Shown: piece after piece, positions 49,997 through 60,038 of the stretch
Numbering within the stretch: position 1 is the first letter of the stretch
Layout of the letters: each line of letters begins with the position of its first letter
Translations under genes and position numbers: made by a program
Notes under the pieces: model-generated
The model's input: the letters and a program-made list of their open reading frames with translations, nothing else
Databases searched by the model: none
What the model was told of the DNA's origin: nothing
From: Chelatococcus sp. YT9
Lineage (GTDB): Bacteria; Pseudomonadota; Alphaproteobacteria; Rhizobiales; Beijerinckiaceae
DNA length: 64,000 nucleotides
Assembly (NCBI RefSeq): GCF_018398315.1
Contig: NZ_JAHBRW010000001.1
Coordinates: forward strand, 2,042,001-2,106,000
Direction of reading: 5' to 3'

Positions 49997-50473
49997 TCAG
50001 GCCGCCAGCTTCTCGGCCTCGATCTGCCTTGTCTCGACCTTGGGCAGCGCCTTGCCGGCTGTAATCTCGATCCGGCGCGGCTTCATCTCTTCGGGAATCT
50101 CGCGCTTGAGATCGATCGTCAGCAGACCATTGACGAGGCTCGCGCCTGCGACCTTGACATGGTCGGCTAGTTCGAAGCGGCGCTGGAAAGCGCGCCAGGC
50201 AATGCCGCGATGCAGATACTGGCTGTTATCCTCGCCCGGCTTCTGACCCGACACCATGAGCATGTTCTGCTCCTGGGTGATGGTCAGCTCGTCCTGCGAG
50301 AAGCCGGCCACCGCCATGGTGATGCGGTAGTCGTCCTCGCCAAGCTTGGCGATGTCATAAGGAGGCCAGTTGTCGATGCTCTCGACGCGGCTCGCAGCTT
50401 CGAGCGCGTTCAGCATTCGGTCGAAGCCGATGCTCGACCGGAACAGGGGAGTAAAGTCGAAAGTGGTTCTCAT
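49997..50473 (-). CDS. Small heat-shock protein Hsp20 (second, IbpA-like)
   Basis: Alpha-crystallin-domain chaperone of 158 residues of the IbpA type: RSSIGFDRMLNALEAA, NWPPYDIAKLGEDDYRITMAVAGF, ENMLMVSGQK, and HRGIAWRAFQRRFELADHVK. The start at 50473 has GGAGGATG before it. In many Rhizobiales such pairs are controlled by ROSE-type RNA thermometers in the 5' leader; the short leader here was not resolved. Confidence 0.93.
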   Translation of the reverse strand: MRTTFDFTPLFRSSIGFDRMLNALEAASRVESIDNWPPYDIAKLGEDDYRITMAVAGFSQDELTITQEQNMLMVSGQKPGEDNSQYLHRGIAWRAFQRRFELADHVKVAGASLVNGLLTIDLKREIPEEMKPRRIEITAGKALPKVETRQIEAEKLAA

Positions 50474-50979
50474 AGCCACATCCTCCATTGAGCAACATGG
50501 GTACAAGTTGTTCTGCCGCCGGATACTATTGCATCCGCTCGACACGCCGACCCCCAAATGGGCGGCCGGCATTCATGATTTAGTTCAGTTGAGTGGCTGT
50601 TCAAGAGGTTGACGTCTTACCGATACCACGCGGCGCAAATTGACCCGGCGCTAAAGCGCCGGGCTTTGTTCACTGGCGGCCCTCCGGCTCTCTACAGCGC
50701 AATGTCAAAGCGCGTTCGCCTCCGGGCCAGCGCGGCTGCCGCCGCGTCACATCTGATCGACACGGGAAGGATTGCTAAGGGCGCTGCCCTCGCGCGGCGC
50801 AAGAAAACTCTCCGACCTTTCGCGGCATAAACGGCCTGCTCCCCGCAAGCGGGTCCTCTCCATTTATTCCACGGTGCCAAAGAGTTGTCTGGCACCTTAC
50901 TACCCCGGTCTCGCCGACGGGCAAGGGTTCAGGAGCGGCGCTTCGCTGCTCTGAACCCCAAACCCGAAGGAAGAGAGAC
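50474..50979. other. Leader region between hsp20 and ardA
   Basis: About 500 bases between divergent genes. The left part should carry the Hsp20 promoter; a GC hairpin (CCCGGCGC-TAAA-GCGCCGGG-like) lies near 50644-50664. The right part has three hairpins before ardA, described separately. The 73-residue frame at 50609-50830 is arginine/alanine-rich without a ribosome site and was not accepted. Confidence 0.45.
50842..50959 (+). promoter_or_regulatory. Three successive hairpins upstream of ardA
   Basis: Three inverted repeats in 118 bases: CCCGC/GCGGG with a two-base loop (50842-50853), GGTGCC/GGCACC with a twelve-base loop (50873-50896), and a long one (50925-50958) whose arms GGGTTCAG and CTGAACCC enclose further pairing GAGCGGCG/CGCTGCTC. 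The last ends about 20 bases before the ardA ATG. In conjugative plasmids, leading-region antirestriction genes can be transcribed from folded single-stranded DNA soon after entry. These hairpins are candidates for that; transcriptional attenuation is the alternative. Confidence 0.5.
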
Positions 50980-51507
50980 ATGACCAGCGCAGCCGACAGC
51001 AATCCCCGCATCTATGTCGCCTGCCTTGCAGCCTACAACAACGGCTATCTGCATGGTGTCTGGATCGACGCGGATCAGGACGCCGACGAGATCAGGAAAG
51101 AGATTTCCGCCATGCTCGCGCGTTCGCCGATCACGGGCGCGGAGGAATACGCCATCCACGACTATGAGGGCTTTGAAGGCGTCACCATCAGGGAATATGC
51201 CAGCATTGAGAGCGTCGCACGGATGGGCGCTTTCATCGCCGAGTACGGCGCGCTAGGCGCGGGCTTGCTGAAGCAGTTCGTCGGCGACATCGACCAAGCC
51301 GAAGCCGCCTTGCAGGACTGCTACCATGGACAGCACGCCAGCCTTGCCGACTACATGGAAGAACTGACTGCCGAGAGCGTCACGATTCCCGATGCCCTTC
51401 GCTACTATATTAATTGGGAGGCAATGGCGCGTGACGCCGAAATGAACGGCGAGTTCTTTACGGTGGAAACCGCACGCAACGAGGTGCATGTCTTTTCCAA
51501 CTACTGA
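50980..51507 (+). CDS. ardA: Antirestriction protein ArdA
   Basis: Acidic cytosolic protein of 175 residues that mimics B-form DNA and blocks type I restriction enzymes. The opening PRIYVACLAAYNNGYLHGVWID, the EEYAIHDYEGF segment, and the closing YINWEAMARDAEMNGEFFTV are typical of ArdA. It is strongly acidic (many D/E). GGAAGAGAG lies before the ATG. ArdA genes protect incoming conjugative DNA. Confidence 0.95.
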   Translation: MTSAADSNPRIYVACLAAYNNGYLHGVWIDADQDADEIRKEISAMLARSPITGAEEYAIHDYEGFEGVTIREYASIESVARMGAFIAEYGALGAGLLKQFVGDIDQAEAALQDCYHGQHASLADYMEELTAESVTIPDALRYYINWEAMARDAEMNGEFFTVETARNEVHVFSNY

Positions 51508-52833: not shown

Positions 52834-53294
52834 TCCCCTTCATCCTGGGAGAGCAATGGCTTGCGGTGCGCCCCCGCAAACAAGACTCTCTGACTCCTGG
52901 TGATCGAGGAGTTAGTAACCGTGTTGGACGGCCCCATGGCCTTTAGGCGAGAAGCCCTGAACATGCGCCAAGGGCTCCCCGACCATAGGGTCAAGGAGTG
53001 TGGTGTCGTCACGGTCGACACCAACCGCCAACAGGGGTTACTAAGCCCCGGAGCAGCGCGTCTGCTCCGCTTTCAGTCTTACCCGACCCGCGCGTGAATG
53101 TCTTCGCCAATTCGGTGCGGCAGGCAATGACGCGCTGAAATCCATCATCTTTTCAGCTTGCCGGCGCTCCCCAAGGGGTGCCGCCAGCGCATAGGCACAA
53201 ATGCGGCACGCTACGTGCCGCCGATCACCCGCCAAGGTTCGCCACAGCCCGCCGAAGTTTTCGGCGACCACATCAACGAACCGAAGGTGATCTT
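52834..53294. other. Hairpin-rich non-coding region before the excisionase-like gene
   Basis: About 460 bases without a supported gene but with three perfect stems: GGTGTCG/CGACACC (53002-53022), CGGAGCAG/CTGCTCCG (53049-53069) and GCGGCACG/CGTGCCGC with a three-base loop (53203-53221). Together with the initiator gene downstream this could be part of a replication or transfer origin, or a regulatory leader. Confidence 0.45.
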
Positions 53295-53567
53295 ATGGCC
53301 ATCCGCCGCAATGCGGAGCTGCCACCGCGCCTGTTGCGCACACAGGAAGCCGCGCGCTTCCTTGGCATCTCCATCCGCACCCTAGAGAAACATCGGACCT
53401 ACGGAACGGGGCCGGCTTATCGCAAGATCGGCGGCCGCGTCCTCTACACCGTCCGCGACCTTGAAGCCTGGAGCGCGGTCGGCACCCGCAAATCCACCCG
53501 CGACAAGAACGCCGGCACGGTCTTTCCCGCGCGCCCGCTGACCCCCGACGAGCGGGGCAAGCTCTGA
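53295..53567 (+). CDS. Excisionase/AlpA-like helix-turn-helix protein
   Basis: DNA-binding protein of 90 residues with a MerR/HTH_17 domain: LLRTQEAARFLGISIRTLEKHR, then the wing YRKIGGRVLYTVRDLEAW. Small proteins of this type act as excisionases or ICE regulators. It ends immediately before the initiator gene (stop at 53565-53567, next ATG at 53568), so the two are co-translated. The ATG at 53295 begins the homology. Confidence 0.87.
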   Translation: MAIRRNAELPPRLLRTQEAARFLGISIRTLEKHRTYGTGPAYRKIGGRVLYTVRDLEAWSAVGTRKSTRDKNAGTVFPARPLTPDERGKL

Positions 53568-54608
53568 ATGCTGCACGACGATCATAGCCCCGCGCAGCCG
53601 ACCGACAGCAGCGAACGCAGCCGCCTCGACCCTTTCATAGTCGCGACAGGCGACGCCGCGCCGCGCGATCAGCGCGATTTGATGGAACGGCCGTTTTTCT
53701 CCCTGGCGAAGCGGCCACGCACCATGCCGATCCTTTACCGGGCCGCCGATGTAGAGGTGCAGGTGTTCGCCATGCCCGAACACGGCATGGCGACGATTTG
53801 GGACGCCGATGTTCTGATATGGGCCGCCTCGCAGATCGTCGCGGCCGAGAACGACGGCTTCCGCACGTCGCGCTTTTTCCGCTTCATGCCCTATCAGCTC
53901 TTACGCGCCATCGGGCGGGCGACGGGCAACCGGGATTACCTGTTGCTCAAAGCCGCGCTGGCGCGGCTGCAATCGACCGTCATCGCCACCACCATCCGTA
54001 ACGGCAAGCATTGGCGGCGGCGGCAATTCTCATGGATCAACGAGTGGGAGGAAATGACGACGCGCGCCGGCCGCGTCGAGGGCATGGAATTTGTCCTGCC
54101 CGAATGGTTCTACAACAGCGTCATCGACCGTTCGTTGGTGCTCACCATCGACCCGGCCTATTTCCGGCTGACTGGCGGCATCGAGCGCTGGCTGTATCGC
54201 GTCGCCCGCAAGCACGCCGGACGCCAGTCCGAAGGCTGGGCGTTCGAGGTGTCCCACCTTCACCAGAAATCCGGCAGCTTGGCGCGGCCGTCCGACTTCG
54301 CGCTCGACCTTCGCCGGATCGCAGCCCGGCAATCGCTGCCCGGCTACAGCCTCCAAATTGAATTGGAGGACGGGCGAGAATTGCTGCGCTTCCTCCCCGA
54401 AAAACAATTCACAGTGCCTGTTGATAACCATGTGAATCCTATCGGGACATTAGGCGCACGCAGTATCGGGACATTAGGCGCAAATCGCGCCCCGGACTCT
54501 ATAGAAGAATCTAACAAAGAATCTAACTCTTCTTCTTTGACGCGCACGCAGGCGATGCGTGGTGCTGTCGGGGTGCCAGGTTTCGCGAACCGGGGCGAGG
54601 TTTCATGA
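53568..54608 (+). CDS. repA: Replication initiator protein A (RPA/RepA family)
   Basis: Initiator-like protein of 346 residues of the RPA family found on alphaproteobacterial ICEs and plasmids. Conserved blocks include ERPFFSLAKRPR, ATIWDADVLIWAASQI, FRFMPYQLLRAIGRATG, MEFVLPEWFY and GGIERWLYRVARKHAGRQ. The C-terminal 60 residues are repeat-rich (IGTLGARS IGTLGANR) and low in complexity. The DNA coding for them contains iteron-like repeats, so an origin may lie inside the gene. ICEs use such initiators to replicate after excision. In relatives a ParA gene follows; here a Tn7-like module does. Confidence 0.9.
   Translation: MLHDDHSPAQPTDSSERSRLDPFIVATGDAAPRDQRDLMERPFFSLAKRPRTMPILYRAADVEVQVFAMPEHGMATIWDADVLIWAASQIVAAENDGFRTSRFFRFMPYQLLRAIGRATGNRDYLLLKAALARLQSTVIATTIRNGKHWRRRQFSWINEWEEMTTRAGRVEGMEFVLPEWFYNSVIDRSLVLTIDPAYFRLTGGIERWLYRVARKHAGRQSEGWAFEVSHLHQKSGSLARPSDFALDLRRIAARQSLPGYSLQIELEDGRELLRFLPEKQFTVPVDNHVNPIGTLGARSIGTLGANRAPDSIEESNKESNSSSLTRTQAMRGAVGVPGFANRGEVS
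54440..54482 (+). repeat. Two direct 19-bp repeats in the repA 3' region
   Basis: TATCGGGACATTAGGCGCA occurs at 54440-54458 and 54464-54482, period 24 bases (eight codons). Repeats inside an initiator gene are often binding sites of that initiator. Perfect DNA-level identity, including codon third positions, suggests selection on DNA rather than protein. Confidence 0.6.
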
Positions 54609-54643
54609 ACTCGCTCCAGGAAACGCGAACCGGATTCACGAAC
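54579..54643. repeat. 20-bp-phased palindromic motifs at the repA end
   Basis: Near-palindromic units TTTCGCGAAC (54581), TTTCATGAAC (54601), AAACGCGAAC (54621) and ATTCACGAAC (54634), the first three exactly 20 bases apart and each preceded by AGG. A fifth, ATTCACGAAACC, lies at 59466, on the far side of the Tn7-like module. The phasing suggests cooperative protein binding: a partition or repA autoregulation operator, or transposase end-binding sites. Confidence 0.55.
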
Positions 54644-56183
54644 CGGGAGCCGGATCATGAGTAGATCCCGCTCCGCGCCTCGGGCCGTATCTGGGTGCCC
54701 ACAAGCGGCAACGCTTTCCTCGCTTCGGCTTTCGGTGTCTCACCAGCAGCTTGGTAGCCGCATCGCCGTTGATGTCGATGCCAAGGGTTTCCCTGGCCCG
54801 CTTGAGTACGGCCTGCCGGTTCTGGTGCCTGTGATCGAGTGCGATCCATTTTCCCAGAGCTTCGGCCTGAGCACTGGTGAGCGCAGGCTTGCCGGTTGGA
54901 CGTTCGAGCGCGGCTTCAAGACCGTTGGCCGCGCCGCGATGAAGCCAGCGATAGATGGTTTTTATATCGACCCCGACGAGCGCCGCTACGGCTTCGACCG
55001 ACGCACCGTCTCTGAGTTCGGCCAGCGCCCGCAGTCTTTGCCGTCGATGCCTGTAGCGCTCCCGCCCGGCTTGTTCGCGCAGATCGGCGGCGACGAGCCC
55101 GTCAAGCCACGGCTTCCATGCACGCCGTCCCTGCGGCGATCTGGTCCGCGCGGCGGAGAGGATTACGCGCAAGCTGTCGCTGGTCAGTTCATCGAGGTCT
55201 GTGAAGGGAGCGAGAAGCCCTTCGAGGCGCGGCGTGCGGAGCGTGGCAATGGCCCTTGGCAGGCGGCGATCGAGATCGCCGAACAGCCAGGCCAACAGCA
55301 AAAGGCCGCCGTAATTCTCTTTCCACGGGATGCGTTCCCACGCGCCCACGGCCATTCCCATATCGCTGCCGATGGCGGCGAAGAGGCGATCGCGCTGCCG
55401 TGGCGCCCAATGGTCGCGTTTGTTCTTCGGGCGCCTGGTCCAGACCATGGCGAGCAGCACGTCGGCGAGCGCCATGGCCGTGGGCCAGTCGAGCGCGCCG
55501 ATGCCGGGAAGGATCACCGTCCCGCCGTGCTTGCCGGCGATGAGCGCGGCCTGCAAGGCGAGCACGGCAGGATGTGCCGGGGTTCCCTCCGCATCGGACA
55601 GCGTCGCATTGCAGCGCCCGCAGCGCAGGTCGATCGGCTCCGAGCCATTCAGCCCGCGCAACCTCAGCCTTGTGCCGCAGGAGGGGCATCGGCTGGTCAG
55701 CATCGTTCCGTGACGAGGGCATGCGCCCGTCCAGCCGAGCGTCCAGTTCAGCCGAAGGTGCGGACGCCGCGCCTCGGCGAGGCAGAGCGCGCAGACATCC
55801 ATGCGGGCCAGGCGTTTTTTGCCCTCAGCACCGGCAGTCCAGCGCTTCGCGGCGAACCGGTCAGGATCGTCGTCGCCAGGCGCAGCAGCCCAGCCATCCA
55901 GCGTCATTCCGGCCAGGTGATCGAGATCGAGGCCGGTCAGGCTGCCGATCCGCTCAAGGGTCACGGAGGCAGGCCGACGCCACCAGCCGGGGTTTTGCCG
56001 GACGTCGATGTGAAGCGCGTCGCGGCAGAAGACGCGCGGCGTCATGCCGAGAACGGCAGAGATCGCCGCCACCCAGGACAGCAGCGCCTCGCCTTCGACC
56101 GGGGCGACATGCCCCGGCAGGCCGATGCGGCCGGGAGCCGGCATCGGGGACGCCGACACCTCGAACAGATCAGACCACGACAC
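54636..56183 (-). CDS. tniQ: TniQ target-selection protein with C-terminal IS630-type HTH
   Basis: Protein of 515 residues. The N-terminal TniQ domain (about 20-200) has zinc knuckles CALC (131-134), CPRH (155-158), CPSC (166-169) and CGRC (188-191). A helical middle follows. From about residue 380 an HTH (VEAVAALVGVDIKTIYRWL, 396-414) and a winged part (GLEAALERPTGKPALT, then a helical 440-470) resemble the DNA-binding domain of IS630/ISxO-type transposases. TniQ proteins bring the transposase ATPase to its target; the added HTH would recognise a specific site, as TnsD does. The start is GTG at 56183, inside the tniB end. The last residues may be read from flanking DNA. Confidence 0.87.
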   Translation of the reverse strand: MSWSDLFEVSASPMPAPGRIGLPGHVAPVEGEALLSWVAAISAVLGMTPRVFCRDALHIDVRQNPGWWRRPASVTLERIGSLTGLDLDHLAGMTLDGWAAAPGDDDPDRFAAKRWTAGAEGKKRLARMDVCALCLAEARRPHLRLNWTLGWTGACPRHGTMLTSRCPSCGTRLRLRGLNGSEPIDLRCGRCNATLSDAEGTPAHPAVLALQAALIAGKHGGTVILPGIGALDWPTAMALADVLLAMVWTRRPKNKRDHWAPRQRDRLFAAIGSDMGMAVGAWERIPWKENYGGLLLLAWLFGDLDRRLPRAIATLRTPRLEGLLAPFTDLDELTSDSLRVILSAARTRSPQGRRAWKPWLDGLVAADLREQAGRERYRHRRQRLRALAELRDGASVEAVAALVGVDIKTIYRWLHRGAANGLEAALERPTGKPALTSAQAEALGKWIALDHRHQNRQAVLKRARETLGIDINGDAATKLLVRHRKPKRGKRCRLWAPRYGPRRGAGSTHDPAPGS

Positions 56184-57072
56184 GACGACGCTCGGAGGGA
56201 CGAATGAAGCCTGTATCCTCGATCATGCGCGTGGAGATCGCTTCCGCGCCGGTCTCCACCGCCCGCACCGCCGCCCGGATGACGACGGCGATCATCTCGC
56301 CGAGCACGCCTTCGGACGCCGAGAGAATGCGTCCGGCAAGCGCGGAATCGGCAAGATGGGACGGCTTGCGCAGCGGCAGCACGGCTTCCAGCGTGCTCAG
56401 CAGACGGCGATACTCGTCGTCGTCGCCCCACAATGGCAGCGGATGCGGCTCGAAGCGGTTGACGAGTTGGTCGTCGCTGCGGATCGCGCGCAGCGCCTCT
56501 GCCGTGCCGACGCCGACCAGCGGAATCCGCAACTCGTTGCCGAGCCAGCGCAGCAGGTTGAGCAGCCGGCGCTGCTGCATCGCCGAGCCGGACAACACGT
56601 TGTGCAACTCGTCGATCACCAGCATGCGCGCGCCCATCGCCTGCATGACACGGACCGCCGTGTCCTGCTTGGTGGCGATCCGGTCGCGCGGGCTGAACGG
56701 CATTCCGAGCGCATGGAGGATGGCCCCGAAGAACCGGCCCTCGTCAGGACCGGGCGGCATCTGCACCTTCACGACGGGAAGGAGTGCCAGACCATCCTCG
56801 CTCTCGGCGGCGGCCGTTCCCGGATGCGCGCGCCGGAACTTCTCGACGATCATGGTCTTGCCGTTGTTCGTCGGTCCGACCAGCAGCAGGTTCGGCATCC
56901 GCGTCCGCGTCGGAAAGCTCAGCAGGTCCTCCAGCGCCGCCAGGACGGCTTCCGCCCGTGCGTAGCCGATCCAGCGATCCGTGCGGATGCGCCGTATCCG
57001 CGAACTGGCGTCCTCGTCGGCCAGGTGCCGGACAGACGGATGTAGATGCGCATAGCCACCGCTCATTCCCAT
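56170..57072 (-). CDS. tniB: TniB/TnsC-like AAA+ transposition ATPase
   Basis: Protein of 300 residues. Walker A GPTNNGKT (66-73), Walker B MLVIDELHN (150-158) and the sensor region PLVGVGTAEALRAI are typical of TniB. It links target-bound TniQ to the transposase and enforces target immunity in Tn7-like systems. The start overlaps the tniA stop; a second ATG two codons in gives a four-base ATGA overlap with better spacing from GTGGAGGA. Confidence 0.92.
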   Translation of the reverse strand: MGMSGGYAHLHPSVRHLADEDASSRIRRIRTDRWIGYARAEAVLAALEDLLSFPTRTRMPNLLLVGPTNNGKTMIVEKFRRAHPGTAAAESEDGLALLPVVKVQMPPGPDEGRFFGAILHALGMPFSPRDRIATKQDTAVRVMQAMGARMLVIDELHNVLSGSAMQQRRLLNLLRWLGNELRIPLVGVGTAEALRAIRSDDQLVNRFEPHPLPLWGDDDEYRRLLSTLEAVLPLRKPSHLADSALAGRILSASEGVLGEMIAVVIRAAVRAVETGAEAISTRMIEDTGFIRPSERRRVVV

Positions 57073-58733
57073 TCCTCCACCGGGAACATGCGTTCATGCG
57101 GAGGAGTGTCAGCACCGATCTGCCGGAAGCGATCAGTCTCATCCGGCTCGACCGGGAGCAGATCGCCACGGGCTTCGGGAGCGACCCGCAGACGCCGTTC
57201 ACGCTGGCGACGCGCTGCTTTGCTGGCACGGACCGCTCCATCCGCGATGGTGCGCATGGCCTCGATCGTGCGGAAGATCGCTTCCTCATCGACCAGCGAC
57301 CGGCCTTCGTCCCGCAGCCGCTTCAACGCCAGGCGGTGCTCCCACAGGCTGATCGGCGGCCGCCGCAGGTCGCGGTAGCTGAGGTTGTAATAGGTGCCGT
57401 CGGGGCCGAGCAGATAAATCCGGCTGAGATCGCGCGGGTCATAGCGCACGATCATCTGCTCGGGATGGCCGATCCAGGTGCCCAGCACATCCGCCCAATA
57501 GGCGATGGAATGCAGCGCCACCCCGTCACGGCGAACCCGGCGACGCGCGATCGGCAGGAAGTCGATCAGGAAGCGGCGGGCATCGGTAACGGCAGTCGGC
57601 TCCCCGCGTCCCAGCGTCGTGCCGTCTCCGGCAATGCCGCGCTGCCACGCCGCCAACGGCGTGATGCCGAGGCCACGATGCAGATCGCGGTGATAAACGC
57701 CGGCGATCGCGTATCCCAGCCAGCGCTCAACCTCGTCGAGCGTCATCGCTGCCGTCTTCTCGGGGTTGAGATCGCCCTTAGCCCGCACGTCGGAGAAGGT
57801 GGTGCCGGGCAGCAGATGGACCTTGCCCATCATCGTGCCGATCAGCCGCTCGATATGGCCGCCGTAATGCGGCGTGCGCACCGGCCTGTAGTCGATGGCG
57901 ATCCCATACTGCTCGCAGCCCCGCTTCAGCGCCTCGGACCGGAACTCCTTCGCGTTGTCGAGATGCAGGCGTTCGGGAATGCCACGCACAGGCCATTCCG
58001 CATCGATGCCGCGCTCGGCCAGCCAGCTTTCCTTGGAGAGAGCGGCGTGCGTCAGGCACAGTGCCACGGAGGTTGCGGACGGCGGTTCCAGCGACAGGTG
58101 GAAGCCGGCCACGCATCGCGAACACACGTCGATCGCCAGCGTGAGCCAGGGCCGCTGGATCGGCGCGCGCGTCTCGCTGTCGACCACGATCACGTCGACC
58201 AGCGTGTGGTCGATCTGGATCAGCGACAGCGGCCAGTGGGCTTCCAGAGAACCGACCACGGGCAGATACCGCTCGCGAACGGCCTTGCGGCCCTCACGCT
58301 TGGCGGCGACCTCACGGGCAGGACGCGCCTTCACGCGTGCGGTGATCGCCTTGCGGCTCGGAACCCGCAAGCCTTCCGCTTTGCAGCGCCGCCGCACTTC
58401 TTCAGCCAGATCGGCAATCCTTGGCCGCTGGCGCGTCAGATAGACAGTGTCGATGACATCGCGGATGACGGCGTCCACATGCTCGTCGAGCAGCGAGATG
58501 CCGCGCTCGGGGCCACGCCGACGCGGCAGCAGGCTCGTCAGACGCGCATCGGCGAGATAGCGACGCAGCAGCGCATAGGCGTGCGTCGGACCGCAACCAA
58601 GTTCGACCGCAGCCGCCACCACGTCGCCTCTGGTGCGCGCCGGGTTCTCCGCCAGACGGCGGATCACCGGCAGGCAGCGCCGCGCTTCGTCCCAGGCAGA
58701 GGCATCGACCATGGAGAGATCGGGCGCGCTCAT
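57063..58733 (-). CDS. tniA: TniA/TnsB-like DDE transposase (Mu transposase core)
   Basis: Transposase of 556 residues from the ATG at 58733, which overlaps the tnsA stop by four bases. N-terminal HTH domains are followed by the retroviral-integrase fold with D175 (LIQIDHTLVD), D259 (HLDNAKEF) and E295 (GGHIERLIG), a D-35-E spacing. A Mu-type C-terminal beta-barrel follows (RYDPRDLSRIYLLGPDG). It joins transposon 3' ends to target DNA. All catalytic residues are intact. Confidence 0.94.
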   Translation of the reverse strand: MSAPDLSMVDASAWDEARRCLPVIRRLAENPARTRGDVVAAAVELGCGPTHAYALLRRYLADARLTSLLPRRRGPERGISLLDEHVDAVIRDVIDTVYLTRQRPRIADLAEEVRRRCKAEGLRVPSRKAITARVKARPAREVAAKREGRKAVRERYLPVVGSLEAHWPLSLIQIDHTLVDVIVVDSETRAPIQRPWLTLAIDVCSRCVAGFHLSLEPPSATSVALCLTHAALSKESWLAERGIDAEWPVRGIPERLHLDNAKEFRSEALKRGCEQYGIAIDYRPVRTPHYGGHIERLIGTMMGKVHLLPGTTFSDVRAKGDLNPEKTAAMTLDEVERWLGYAIAGVYHRDLHRGLGITPLAAWQRGIAGDGTTLGRGEPTAVTDARRFLIDFLPIARRRVRRDGVALHSIAYWADVLGTWIGHPEQMIVRYDPRDLSRIYLLGPDGTYYNLSYRDLRRPPISLWEHRLALKRLRDEGRSLVDEEAIFRTIEAMRTIADGAVRASKAARRQRERRLRVAPEARGDLLPVEPDETDRFRQIGADTPPHERMFPVEEWE

Positions 58734-59353
58734 CGCGACATCACCCGTGTCTGCGCCGTGATCGGTGCGGCCAGATCGACGACAAGCGCACCCCGCGCGA
58801 TCAATCGCCACACTACGGCAAGTCCTGCTTCACGCGAGGCGGGCAGCATACCGACCAGATCGGCGAAGCTCACCGCATTGTCGCGCACATGGGCAAGCGC
58901 ACGTTCCGCCAGCGCCGTGTCGATCGGCGCAGTCCTGAGCGGCAGCAATCGCTTCGCCGCATCGAGTTGCGGTCCGCGAACGCCGCGCTCGGTCGCGATG
59001 CGGAAACGTGCTCCGTTGCTGCCCGCCCATGATCGGGCGGCGGCGAAGGCAGGCCGAAAGCGCCTCCAGCCCGCGCGCAGATCAGCCCGGTACTTGATCT
59101 CGACGATCTCGCAACGGCCATCGCTCCAATCCACGCGAAAGTCCGGCGTGTACCGCCGCTGGCGACCCTCATGCTCGAATCGGATCGTTGCCGGCTGGGC
59201 CGTCACCACCGCGCTCGCATCCATGAAACTCGCGAGCGTCACGAAGTCCCGCTCCAGCGAACTCTCATGCTCCGCCACGCCCGTTTCCAAGGGCTGGAAG
59301 CCGATCACATGCGACCGATGGCTCAGCGGAATGCGCCGCAAATGCACCTCCAT
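58730..59353 (-). CDS. tnsA: TnsA-like heteromeric transposase endonuclease
   Basis: Protein of 207 residues. The restriction-endonuclease-like core has EHESSLERDF (E30/E34), YTPDFRVDW (D71) and EIVEIKYRA (E85, K87), as in TnsA, which cuts transposon 5' ends so that transposition is true cut-and-paste. A C-terminal winged-helix-like region (about 130-200) may contact TniB. The ATG at 59353 begins the homology; upstream in-frame sequence to 59419 is unlike the family. Confidence 0.9.
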   Translation of the reverse strand: MEVHLRRIPLSHRSHVIGFQPLETGVAEHESSLERDFVTLASFMDASAVVTAQPATIRFEHEGRQRRYTPDFRVDWSDGRCEIVEIKYRADLRAGWRRFRPAFAAARSWAGSNGARFRIATERGVRGPQLDAAKRLLPLRTAPIDTALAERALAHVRDNAVSFADLVGMLPASREAGLAVVWRLIARGALVVDLAAPITAQTRVMSR

Positions 59354-59519
59354 TTGCGAAACGAGTCGGTACGCAAACCTAGCACATTTTGGGGTCAGTT
59401 CACAAACATGGAACCACATCTATGCGCGCAAGCCATTGTTCGGACTCACGTCCGCTCTCACGCCGATTCACGAAACCTGGAAAAACGACAGGTGCCGGTT
59501 CTGCCCGGAGAGCCGAGCC

Positions 59520-60038
59520 ATGACCCGCCGCGCCCATCGCAGCGCGCACGGCCGTCCGCTGCCGGACGGACCCGCGCCCTTCACCACGCTTGTCGAGCTG
59601 ACTTTCGAGAAGCGCAAGATCGAGCACTGGATACGCTTCGGCCGCAAGAGCTACGAGCAGATCATCGACCGCCGCCGCAGCGTCGTCGGCTTCGCGCCGG
59701 AAAGCATCTTTGCCTTCGTCCGGTGGGCGAACGGCGAACATGGCACGATCATTTCCCGCATCGACATTGCACGCGCCATCGGGCGCGGCGAGCCATTCCA
59801 GACATTGCCGCTCGTCCGACCTGGCGGCGACATTCTATTGCGTCTCGACGGCTGGCCAAAGGTTCAGCGCGCGCTTGCCGCTATCGACGCCGTGGAAGCC
59901 TTGGGCCTCGATCCGGCAGACGTGTCGCCGGACTACTGGCGGCACGCACACAACCGTCTGACCGCCAATCTAGAGCCGGCCGCCTACACGCCGGAACGAC
60001 ATGCGGCATGGATCGGGCGTCGGAGGATCGAGCCATGA
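59520..60038 (+). CDS. DUF2840 protein of the conjugation module
   Basis: Protein of 172 residues with the DUF2840 core: TTLVELTFEKRKIEHWIRFGRK, AFVRWANGEHGTIISRIDI and LRPGGDILLRLDG-type segments. The role is unknown, but it always accompanies traF and rlxS in these ICEs. The ATG at 59520 follows GGAGAGCCGAG. Its stop overlaps the traF start (ATGA). It marks the point where normal ICE gene order resumes after the Tn7-like module. Confidence 0.88.
   Translation: MTRRAHRSAHGRPLPDGPAPFTTLVELTFEKRKIEHWIRFGRKSYEQIIDRRRSVVGFAPESIFAFVRWANGEHGTIISRIDIARAIGRGEPFQTLPLVRPGGDILLRLDGWPKVQRALAAIDAVEALGLDPADVSPDYWRHAHNRLTANLEPAAYTPERHAAWIGRRRIEP

Follow-up and report, generated by a model that had tools for sequence, protein, structure and literature searches.

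A cargo-less Tn7-like transposon inserted downstream of repA in integrative and conjugative elements

The transposon, its ends and its genes

We analysed a stretch of 64,000 nucleotides from Chelatococcus sp. YT9 (contig NZ_JAHBRW010000001.1, positions 2,042,001 to 2,106,000; hereafter the window, whose positions are used throughout), in which four Tn7-like genes are found between two core genes of an integrative and conjugative element (ICE): repA and a gene encoding a DUF2840 protein. A preliminary description, made from the sequence alone, had proposed either a transposon that inserted in parA and lost its cargo, or a module that the whole ICE had taken up for its own movement or for target choice. 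Genomes, loci and contigs are designated by G, L and C followed by a number, G000 being the genome of the strain itself. The transposon and its target comprise the following features (E-values of domain and protein matches between brackets):

53568..54608, plus strand: repA, encoding Replication initiator protein A of the ICE (PF10134, 3e-82); the open frame extends 43 bp into the transposon
54440..54482, plus strand: iteron-like sequence, two identical direct repeats of 19 nt, 24 bp apart
54510..54527, plus strand: target array TCTAACAAAGAATCTAAC, separated from the downstream duplication by 33 bp; the genome has three matches to the pattern TCTAACNNAGANTCTAAC, all of them at repA genes
54561..54565, no strand: 5-bp target duplication GGTGC on the repA side, a single copy of which is present at the matching place in the empty relatives L043-L046
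54566..59490, minus strand: the complete cargo-less Tn7-like transposon, with the tniQ end at 54566 and the tnsA end at 59490; the borders are the ends of three identical copies
54572..54647, no strand: dense repeats of ~18-20 nt of the GGTTTCGCGAACCGG type, at the tniQ end
54636..56183, minus strand: tniQ, TniQ/TnsD-like target selector gene, 515 amino acids (PF06527 at residues 23-162, 8.2e-19; helix-turn-helix (HTH) domains HTH_29/HTH_23 at 381-441)
56170..57072, minus strand: tnsC, TnsC/TniB AAA+ gene (PF05621, 3.2e-71; VchTnsC, 7.5e-13; ShTnsC, 2.8e-10)
57063..58733, minus strand: tnsB/tniA, DDE transposase gene (PF09299 (Mu-transpos_C), 6e-14; PF09039, 1.6e-06; rve, 2.1e-05)
58730..59353, minus strand: tnsA, TnsA-like endonuclease gene, longest open reading frame from 59419 (PF08722, 1.8e-13; the match to PseTnsA is weak, 0.0047)
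59491..59495, no strand: 5-bp target duplication GGTGC on the DUF2840 side

Flank comparison of the three copies in the strain's own genome delimited a transposon of 4925 bp with the termini TGTCG...CGACA; the element that had been placed at 54636..59353 is real, and its borders are wider (54566-59490). The raw stretch common to these copies is one base longer than the element, since all three duplications end in C. The inverted end arms (35 nt, one flanking base included per arm) are 77% complementary. Both the end repeats and the 5-bp duplication that the preliminary description had suggested looking for are present (TGTCG...CGACA and GGTGC). The ~18-20-nt repeats at the tniQ end are putative TnsB sites, by analogy with Tn7; at the tnsA end the repeat tool found no such repeats, and three sparser ones were recognised by eye. 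The right end of Tn7 contains four dense sites and adjoins the recognised site, and its left end contains three spread ones. The four dense versus three spread sites would resemble these right and left ends, with the dense end here facing repA.

The genes are arranged on the minus strand in the order tnsA, tnsB, tnsC, tniQ and, as had been described, all four are intact, overlap and come without cargo (PF08722, Mu-transpos_C, TniB and TniQ matches), there being room for no further gene between the ends. The list of open reading frames gives a GTG start at 58811 for tnsB; we read the start as the ATG at 58733, which overlaps the tnsA stop. The rve match of TnsB (2.1e-05) falls below the cut-off of Pfam. 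A sequence search of the solved structures in the PDB recovered TnsB chains for TnsB (best 7.1e-44) and, weakly, TniQ chains for TniQ (best 0.00064), and the matches for TnsB and TnsC were mostly chains from CRISPR-associated transposons. The machinery is without doubt Tn7-like. The TniQ domain, the C-terminal HTH (381-441) and the length of 515 amino acids fit a TnsD-type protein; the predicted structure is a weak model. All relatives of which both ends were located are cargo-less units of 4.7-5.0 kb, one copy in S. baderi that is interrupted by IS21 apart, which argues against the proposed loss of cargo.

Copies and insertion sites across genomes

The strain's own genome (6.74 Mb, 7 contigs) contains three copies of the transposon, identical over the whole element, and exactly three PF10134 repA genes, each with one copy directly downstream. 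Chance is excluded as the explanation, given that the copies are identical and occupy three repA loci in a genome of this size. The copies have separate duplications (GGTGC in the window, ACCTC and ACATC) and, since they are identical while the RepA proteins are 53-81% alike, the insertions are independent and recent.

In two further genomes, G005 and G082, the transposon forms a short contig with exact or near-exact ends, as expected from a collapsed repeat, and the repA loci (3/3 and 6/6, respectively) run into the tniQ end, the contig ending soon after. Both element ends were counted three times each in the own genome, three times each in G005 and six times each in G082, in the latter two besides the element contig; these independent counts equal the numbers of repA genes. 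The left and right duplications in G082 agree as sets for all six (ACCTC twice, ACAAC, GAACC, AACTC and CGTGG). Full occupancy thus holds for 12 of the 12 repA loci of the three genomes (own 3, G005 3, G082 6), a strong and repeated targeting that the preliminary description had overlooked.

An element that inserts broadly and of which the copies elsewhere were lost, the repA-parA junction being harmless, could produce such a distribution through survival only. The junction looks like a safe site, and Tn7-like elements generally favour safe sites, as stated in part of PMC8649781. However, 12/12 copies in genomes totalling ~15.4 Mb lie at repA, in one orientation and with a modal spacing of 28 bp, and two divergent copies lie inside parA, so that the region is chosen even where harm is possible; we consider survival alone a very unlikely explanation.

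Single further copies are present in G199 (duplication CACAC), in Bradyrhizobium diversitatis (L022; GCGGA, in repA orientation) and at a contig edge (L023). Together, 15 insertions with a TniQ at least 63% identical were taken as the close clade, 14 of which are beside repA; the contig of L023 is too short to contain repA, and this insertion was placed by its array alone. A divergent clade (TniQ 35-38% identical) consists of G595, L025 and G346, the last with one copy at each of its two repA genes. All of these copies likewise lie downstream of repA, which the tniQ end faces. The tniQ end points to the repA side in 15/15 close-clade insertions and in 19/19 insertions when the divergent clade is included (L023 via its array only).

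Descent without targeting, in which one ancient insertion was carried along with the ICE backbones or by recombination of the repA-element-parA block, would fit the unlike duplications on the two sides of one G005 copy, which suggest recombination. Against it, the own copies are 100% identical, yet their flanks diverge at once, and the RepA proteins within multi-copy genomes are overall 53-87% alike. Each site moreover has its own 5-bp duplication, and empty sites in near relatives have one copy of the duplicated bases. The independent duplications refute this explanation, to which we assign next to no probability.

The transposon is rare. With the limits applied, and with the own genome included in every count, TniQ relatives occurred in 6/298 genomes at the level of the family, 3/397 at that of the order and 1/385 at that of the class; there were at least seven loci among genome contigs and six plasmid records.

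The target region and the choice of target

The target is the oriV-like region of ICEs and not parA, in which the transposon had been supposed to lie: the insertions are in the region downstream of repA, and at the other two own copies the start of parA (NQKGG motif) follows at +151 and +160. The loci L044-L046, which have the same repA type without the transposon, show no parA motif in ~1.4 kb downstream, where DUF2840 is next. Because parA is also missing from these element-free loci, its absence from the window locus need not stem from the transposon. They carry one GGTGC where the window has two, and the same is true for L043, the nearest relative in the list, which keeps parA. In all, eight loci (L044, L045, L046, L054, L055, L065, L066 and L067) have no parA motif within ~1.4 kb of repA and DUF2840-like frames instead.

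The iteron-like repeats, which at the L005 copy comprise three direct repeats of 21 nt between repA and the insertion, are followed by an array of 12-bp repeats (consensus TTAACTTAGAGTCTAACANAGAATCTAAC, core TCTAAC). The strict pattern TCTAACNNAGANTCTAAC has three matches in the own genome and 11 in five genomes, each of them at a repA locus, and its reversed form, used as a control, gave 0 matches. Matches to repA were present in 41 of 249 genomes, and from this longer list we took 29 loci besides the own one (L043-L071); TCTAAC was found downstream of repA at least once in 29/29 of these loci of the order and at least twice in 27/29. In another set, of 19 loci, L092 lacks TCTAAC in the usual place and L081 has none. 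The two-unit 12-bp form is present in 34 of 46 rows (one locus counted twice). The distance between the last array unit and the duplication is 28 bp in 9 of the 15 close-clade insertions (in one case counted from the degenerate unit TATAAC) and 27, 30, 33, 24, 16 and 14 bp in the others, the values 16 and 14 belonging to a different array type. The conservation of the array after repA in ICEs is an observation in itself; it may act as an unwinding element, an initiator site or otherwise.

In Tn7, TnsA and TnsB free the element through double-strand cuts, TnsC connects the target with the transposase and a TniQ with an HTH extension selects the target, according to passages of PMC11406308 and PMC10293859; the latter, in part, associates small TniQs without extension with elements that have other selectors. 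Since TniQ is long here and the element contains no other selector gene, TniQ is expected to be the selector, and its C-terminal HTH, as judged from the sequence, would offer a candidate reader of the DNA. We consider it highly probable that the element is an autonomous, cargo-less cut-and-paste Tn7-like transposon, the TnsD-type TniQ of which targets the 12-bp array (TCTAAC) downstream of PF10134 repA in an oriV-like region. The most likely role of TniQ is that of a TnsD-like selector of the origin array, which would make the element a single-pathway "ICE-origin hunter" similar to an insertion sequence.

In the proposed mechanism, TniQ would mark the array, either unaided or together with RepA or some other protein bound at the origin. 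TnsC would load beside the array, and TnsA-TnsB would cut the element out and insert it ~28 bp away, producing the 5-bp duplication and leaving the tniQ end on the repA side. The presence of TnsA suggests the cut-and-paste mode; TniQ may read the array by itself or with the assistance of RepA, and the target region is presumably a replication origin. The element would spread by jumps from one ICE to another in a cell, be they resident or incoming, the ICE carrying it between cells, and its hosts would be ICEs and plasmids with a PF10134 RepA.

The comparison with other relatives links the target to TniQ. Between elements that differ in their targets, TnsB is much better conserved than TniQ, and the elements with a TnsB that is 70-78% and a TniQ that is ~30-34% identical are inserted elsewhere or, in G267, not at its repA genes; as similar TnsBs with different TniQs go to different sites, target choice tracks TniQ. 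Among them, L031-L035 on Sphingobium/Rhizorhabdus plasmids (TnsB 70-75%, TniQ ~30-34%) are like our element in gene order, size and end type and differ in the TniQ and in the sites, which are several and unrelated. A shortened relative (L024; TniQ 42%, TnsB 75% identical) is placed after parB and not at repA; G252, which we take to be the genome of L024, has no PF10134 match. The three repA loci of G267 have no element end and are followed by parA starts; the elements of G267 and L026 fill whole short contigs. In the TniQ tree, of which 7 of 11 inner branches are well supported and 2 open, the sequences form three clades, with one long S. baderi row standing alone. The branches of the TnsB tree are short, with good support for 5 of 11 and 3 open.

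Some further observations were made on these relatives. The L031-L035 elements are cargo-less TnsABC-TniQ units, and three plasmids of one S. baderi strain carry copies, one of which is split by IS21. The contigs of L018 (4918 bp) and L026 (4962 bp) are about one element long and have other TniQ types, and are probably collapsed multi-copy elements. A palindrome of the ACACTTTACC type near the sphingomonad relatives was considered and rejected: it was seen by eye at three of five loci (L031, L032 and L034) and by a strict scan at two of five, the S. baderi loci L033 and L035 being without it.

Several results weigh against targeting of the array by TniQ. The structure model of TniQ is poor (mean predicted local distance difference test score 61) and its top fold match, in the ShCAST complex, is weak (E-value 0.079); a placement of domains from this model was dropped, the model being too weak for confidence. 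The strict pattern covers 11 of the 18 repA loci of the five genomes, the array often being degenerate or wider. In G199 only one of four repA genes is occupied, and the empty locus L092 of this genome is without array in the usual place. The spacing is variable, ranging from 14 to 33 bp in the close clade and being 49 and 67 bp in G346 (28 bp by eye in L025), and recognition may therefore involve more than one determinant or bound protein. One G346 copy and the G595 copy are positioned within the first parA codons, which implies that the safe site is not always respected. A 5-bp duplication is present in eight of the nine repA insertions with both sides on one contig (none was found for L025, where it was looked for), the ends in G199, L022 and G595 having been located by requiring equal 5-bp flanks, so that these duplications are partly by construction. 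In G005, the left and right duplications match in two of three cases, with one left and one right mismatched, which suggests that two ICEs recombined through identical transposon copies. The left duplication at L087 (C14) of this genome is ACATC, and the unmatched right end L101 (C7) has CGTGG beside DUF2840.

The variable spacing (spanning 19 bp in the close clade, with a downstream shift in the divergent clade) would be accommodated if TniQ/TnsC recognised not the naked array but the RepA-occupied origin or locally unwound DNA, in which case the element would find replication-competent origins. Many insertions were judged by eye to fall within or beside a DnaA-box-like stretch (TGTGGAAAA, TGCGGATAA) that follows the iteron-like repeats, and elements of the Tn5053 family use the resolvase of their target site, as reported in part of PMC7765201. 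The spacing of exactly 28 bp in 9/15 insertions despite different RepAs, and the HTH of TniQ as a possible direct reader, argue against this alternative, which we regard as possible, though less likely than not. A further-reaching proposal is that the transposon is an obligate parasite of conjugative elements: its TniQ would sense a RepA-loaded or opening oriV, so that it would insert only in ICEs that replicate as episomes, the separation of oriV/repA from parA would alter replication, partition or compatibility, and every repA-type ICE in the cell would come to carry it. We hold this to be doubtful.

Known transposons and the host ICE

Tn7-like transposons are mainly known as cargo carriers with a chromosomal home and a plasmid route. 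Here, there is no cargo, no chromosomal home gene and one selector, and the address is a conserved element in the origin region of a widespread ICE family, so that the transposon could travel between bacteria with self-transferring elements instead of settling in the chromosome. The kind of element is known; the homing of a cargo-less member to the origin regions of ICEs is a new lifestyle. In the open-access literature, most subscription papers being outside this scope, no TniQ element was found reported at ICE replication origins. As far as the cited sections go, 96% of 6,549 delimited Tn7-like transposons have cargo (PMC8649781), and a 2024 review names Tn5053 (res sites) and Tn5469 (cargo-less, apparently unspecific) as elements without two pathways and expects further TniQ lifestyles (PMC11406308). 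The system is compact, consisting of four genes, tnsA among them, and has a natural DNA address. It could be a test case for TniQ variants that define targets, could possibly be used to mark ICE origins, and highlights the conserved 12-bp array in these origins.

The likeness to Tn7 includes the proteins (TnsA, TnsB, TnsC and a protein that combines a TniQ domain with a DNA-binding part at its C-terminus), the TGT/ACA ends, the 5-bp duplication, the fixed orientation and the insertion beside a recognised sequence (in part after PMC11406308). In line with this, the element combines TnsABC-TniQ, TGT...ACA ends with repeats, a 5-bp duplication and a targeted, orientation-controlled insertion. It is not Tn7 in the strict sense: the attTn7 site of Tn7 is chromosomal, at glmS, whereas this element of 4.9 kb, which contains only four genes between its ends and neither TnsE nor cargo, is inserted downstream of repA in the origin region of ICEs and plasmids, with several copies per genome. 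With the Tn5053/Tn402 elements ('res site hunters') it shares a single TniQ, a target on mobile elements, a preferred orientation and the 5-bp duplication, as described in parts of PMC7765201 and PMC11406308. It differs in having TnsA, in having no tniR/res (no PF00239 match within the ends) and no mer or integron cargo, and in a target that is not a res site; since TnsA is present and tniR/res is missing, cut-and-paste rather than cointegrate formation is expected. Tn5469 is likewise cargo-less with a single TniQ and, in the lines devoted to it in PMC11406308, appears to be without target specificity, whereas our element is highly specific. The four genes fill the 4925 bp and leave no room for the Cas effector genes or array of a CRISPR-associated transposon.

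The flanking genes are core ICE genes, as the preliminary description had recognised (repA, PF10134, 3e-82; DUF2840, 1.9e-68). Besides repA, they include:

53178..53567, plus strand: HTH_17 protein gene, excisionase-like, in the RdfS position upstream of repA (PF12728, 6.1e-10)
59520..60038, plus strand: DUF2840, the next ICE core gene (PF11000, 1.9e-68)

Downstream, the ICE continues with DUF2840 and a transglycosylase and, past the window, with a VirD4/TraG-type coupling protein, a TrbE-like ATPase and TrbL. In Mesorhizobium ICEs, a replication initiator and DUF2840 are found between rdfS and traF, and the genes also occur in Tn4371, as stated in part of PMC8627217.

The idea that the whole ICE uses TnsABC-TniQ as its integrase or target chooser had been left open because no integrase was visible. 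Within the 64-kb window this holds true, as none of the 14 PF00589 and 12 PF00239 matches of the genome lies inside it. Outside the window, the search for an integrase that had been advised recovered a large serine recombinase of 565 amino acids (G000:C1:2127593-2129290; L095:3593-5290), which overlaps a tRNA-Arg gene (L095:5225-5301) and is likely the ICE integrase, with the tRNA-Arg site as the probable ICE border. End repeats, a 5-bp duplication and an integrase elsewhere, the combination that had been named as the sign of a simple insertion, are hence all present. The ends and duplications are tight around the four genes and inside the ICE, the outer borders of which are unmapped, identical copies occur in three different backbones, and at many related repA loci parA or DUF2840 follows immediately, in place of the transposon module. 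In its simple form, the use of the module by the ICE is therefore refuted, and we give it hardly any credence. When the tRNA 3' end was searched for elsewhere in the window and in three neighbouring stretches, nothing but the gene itself was recovered. A tyrosine integrase at C1:2143785 was rejected as the ICE integrase: it is 42 kb from the element and its domains were read as those of a chromosomal XerC/D-type protein, the serine recombinase being the better candidate. Near the ICE core, an ArdA-like antirestriction protein (50980-51507) and a small heat-shock (Hsp20-like) protein (49997-50572) were recognised by eye.

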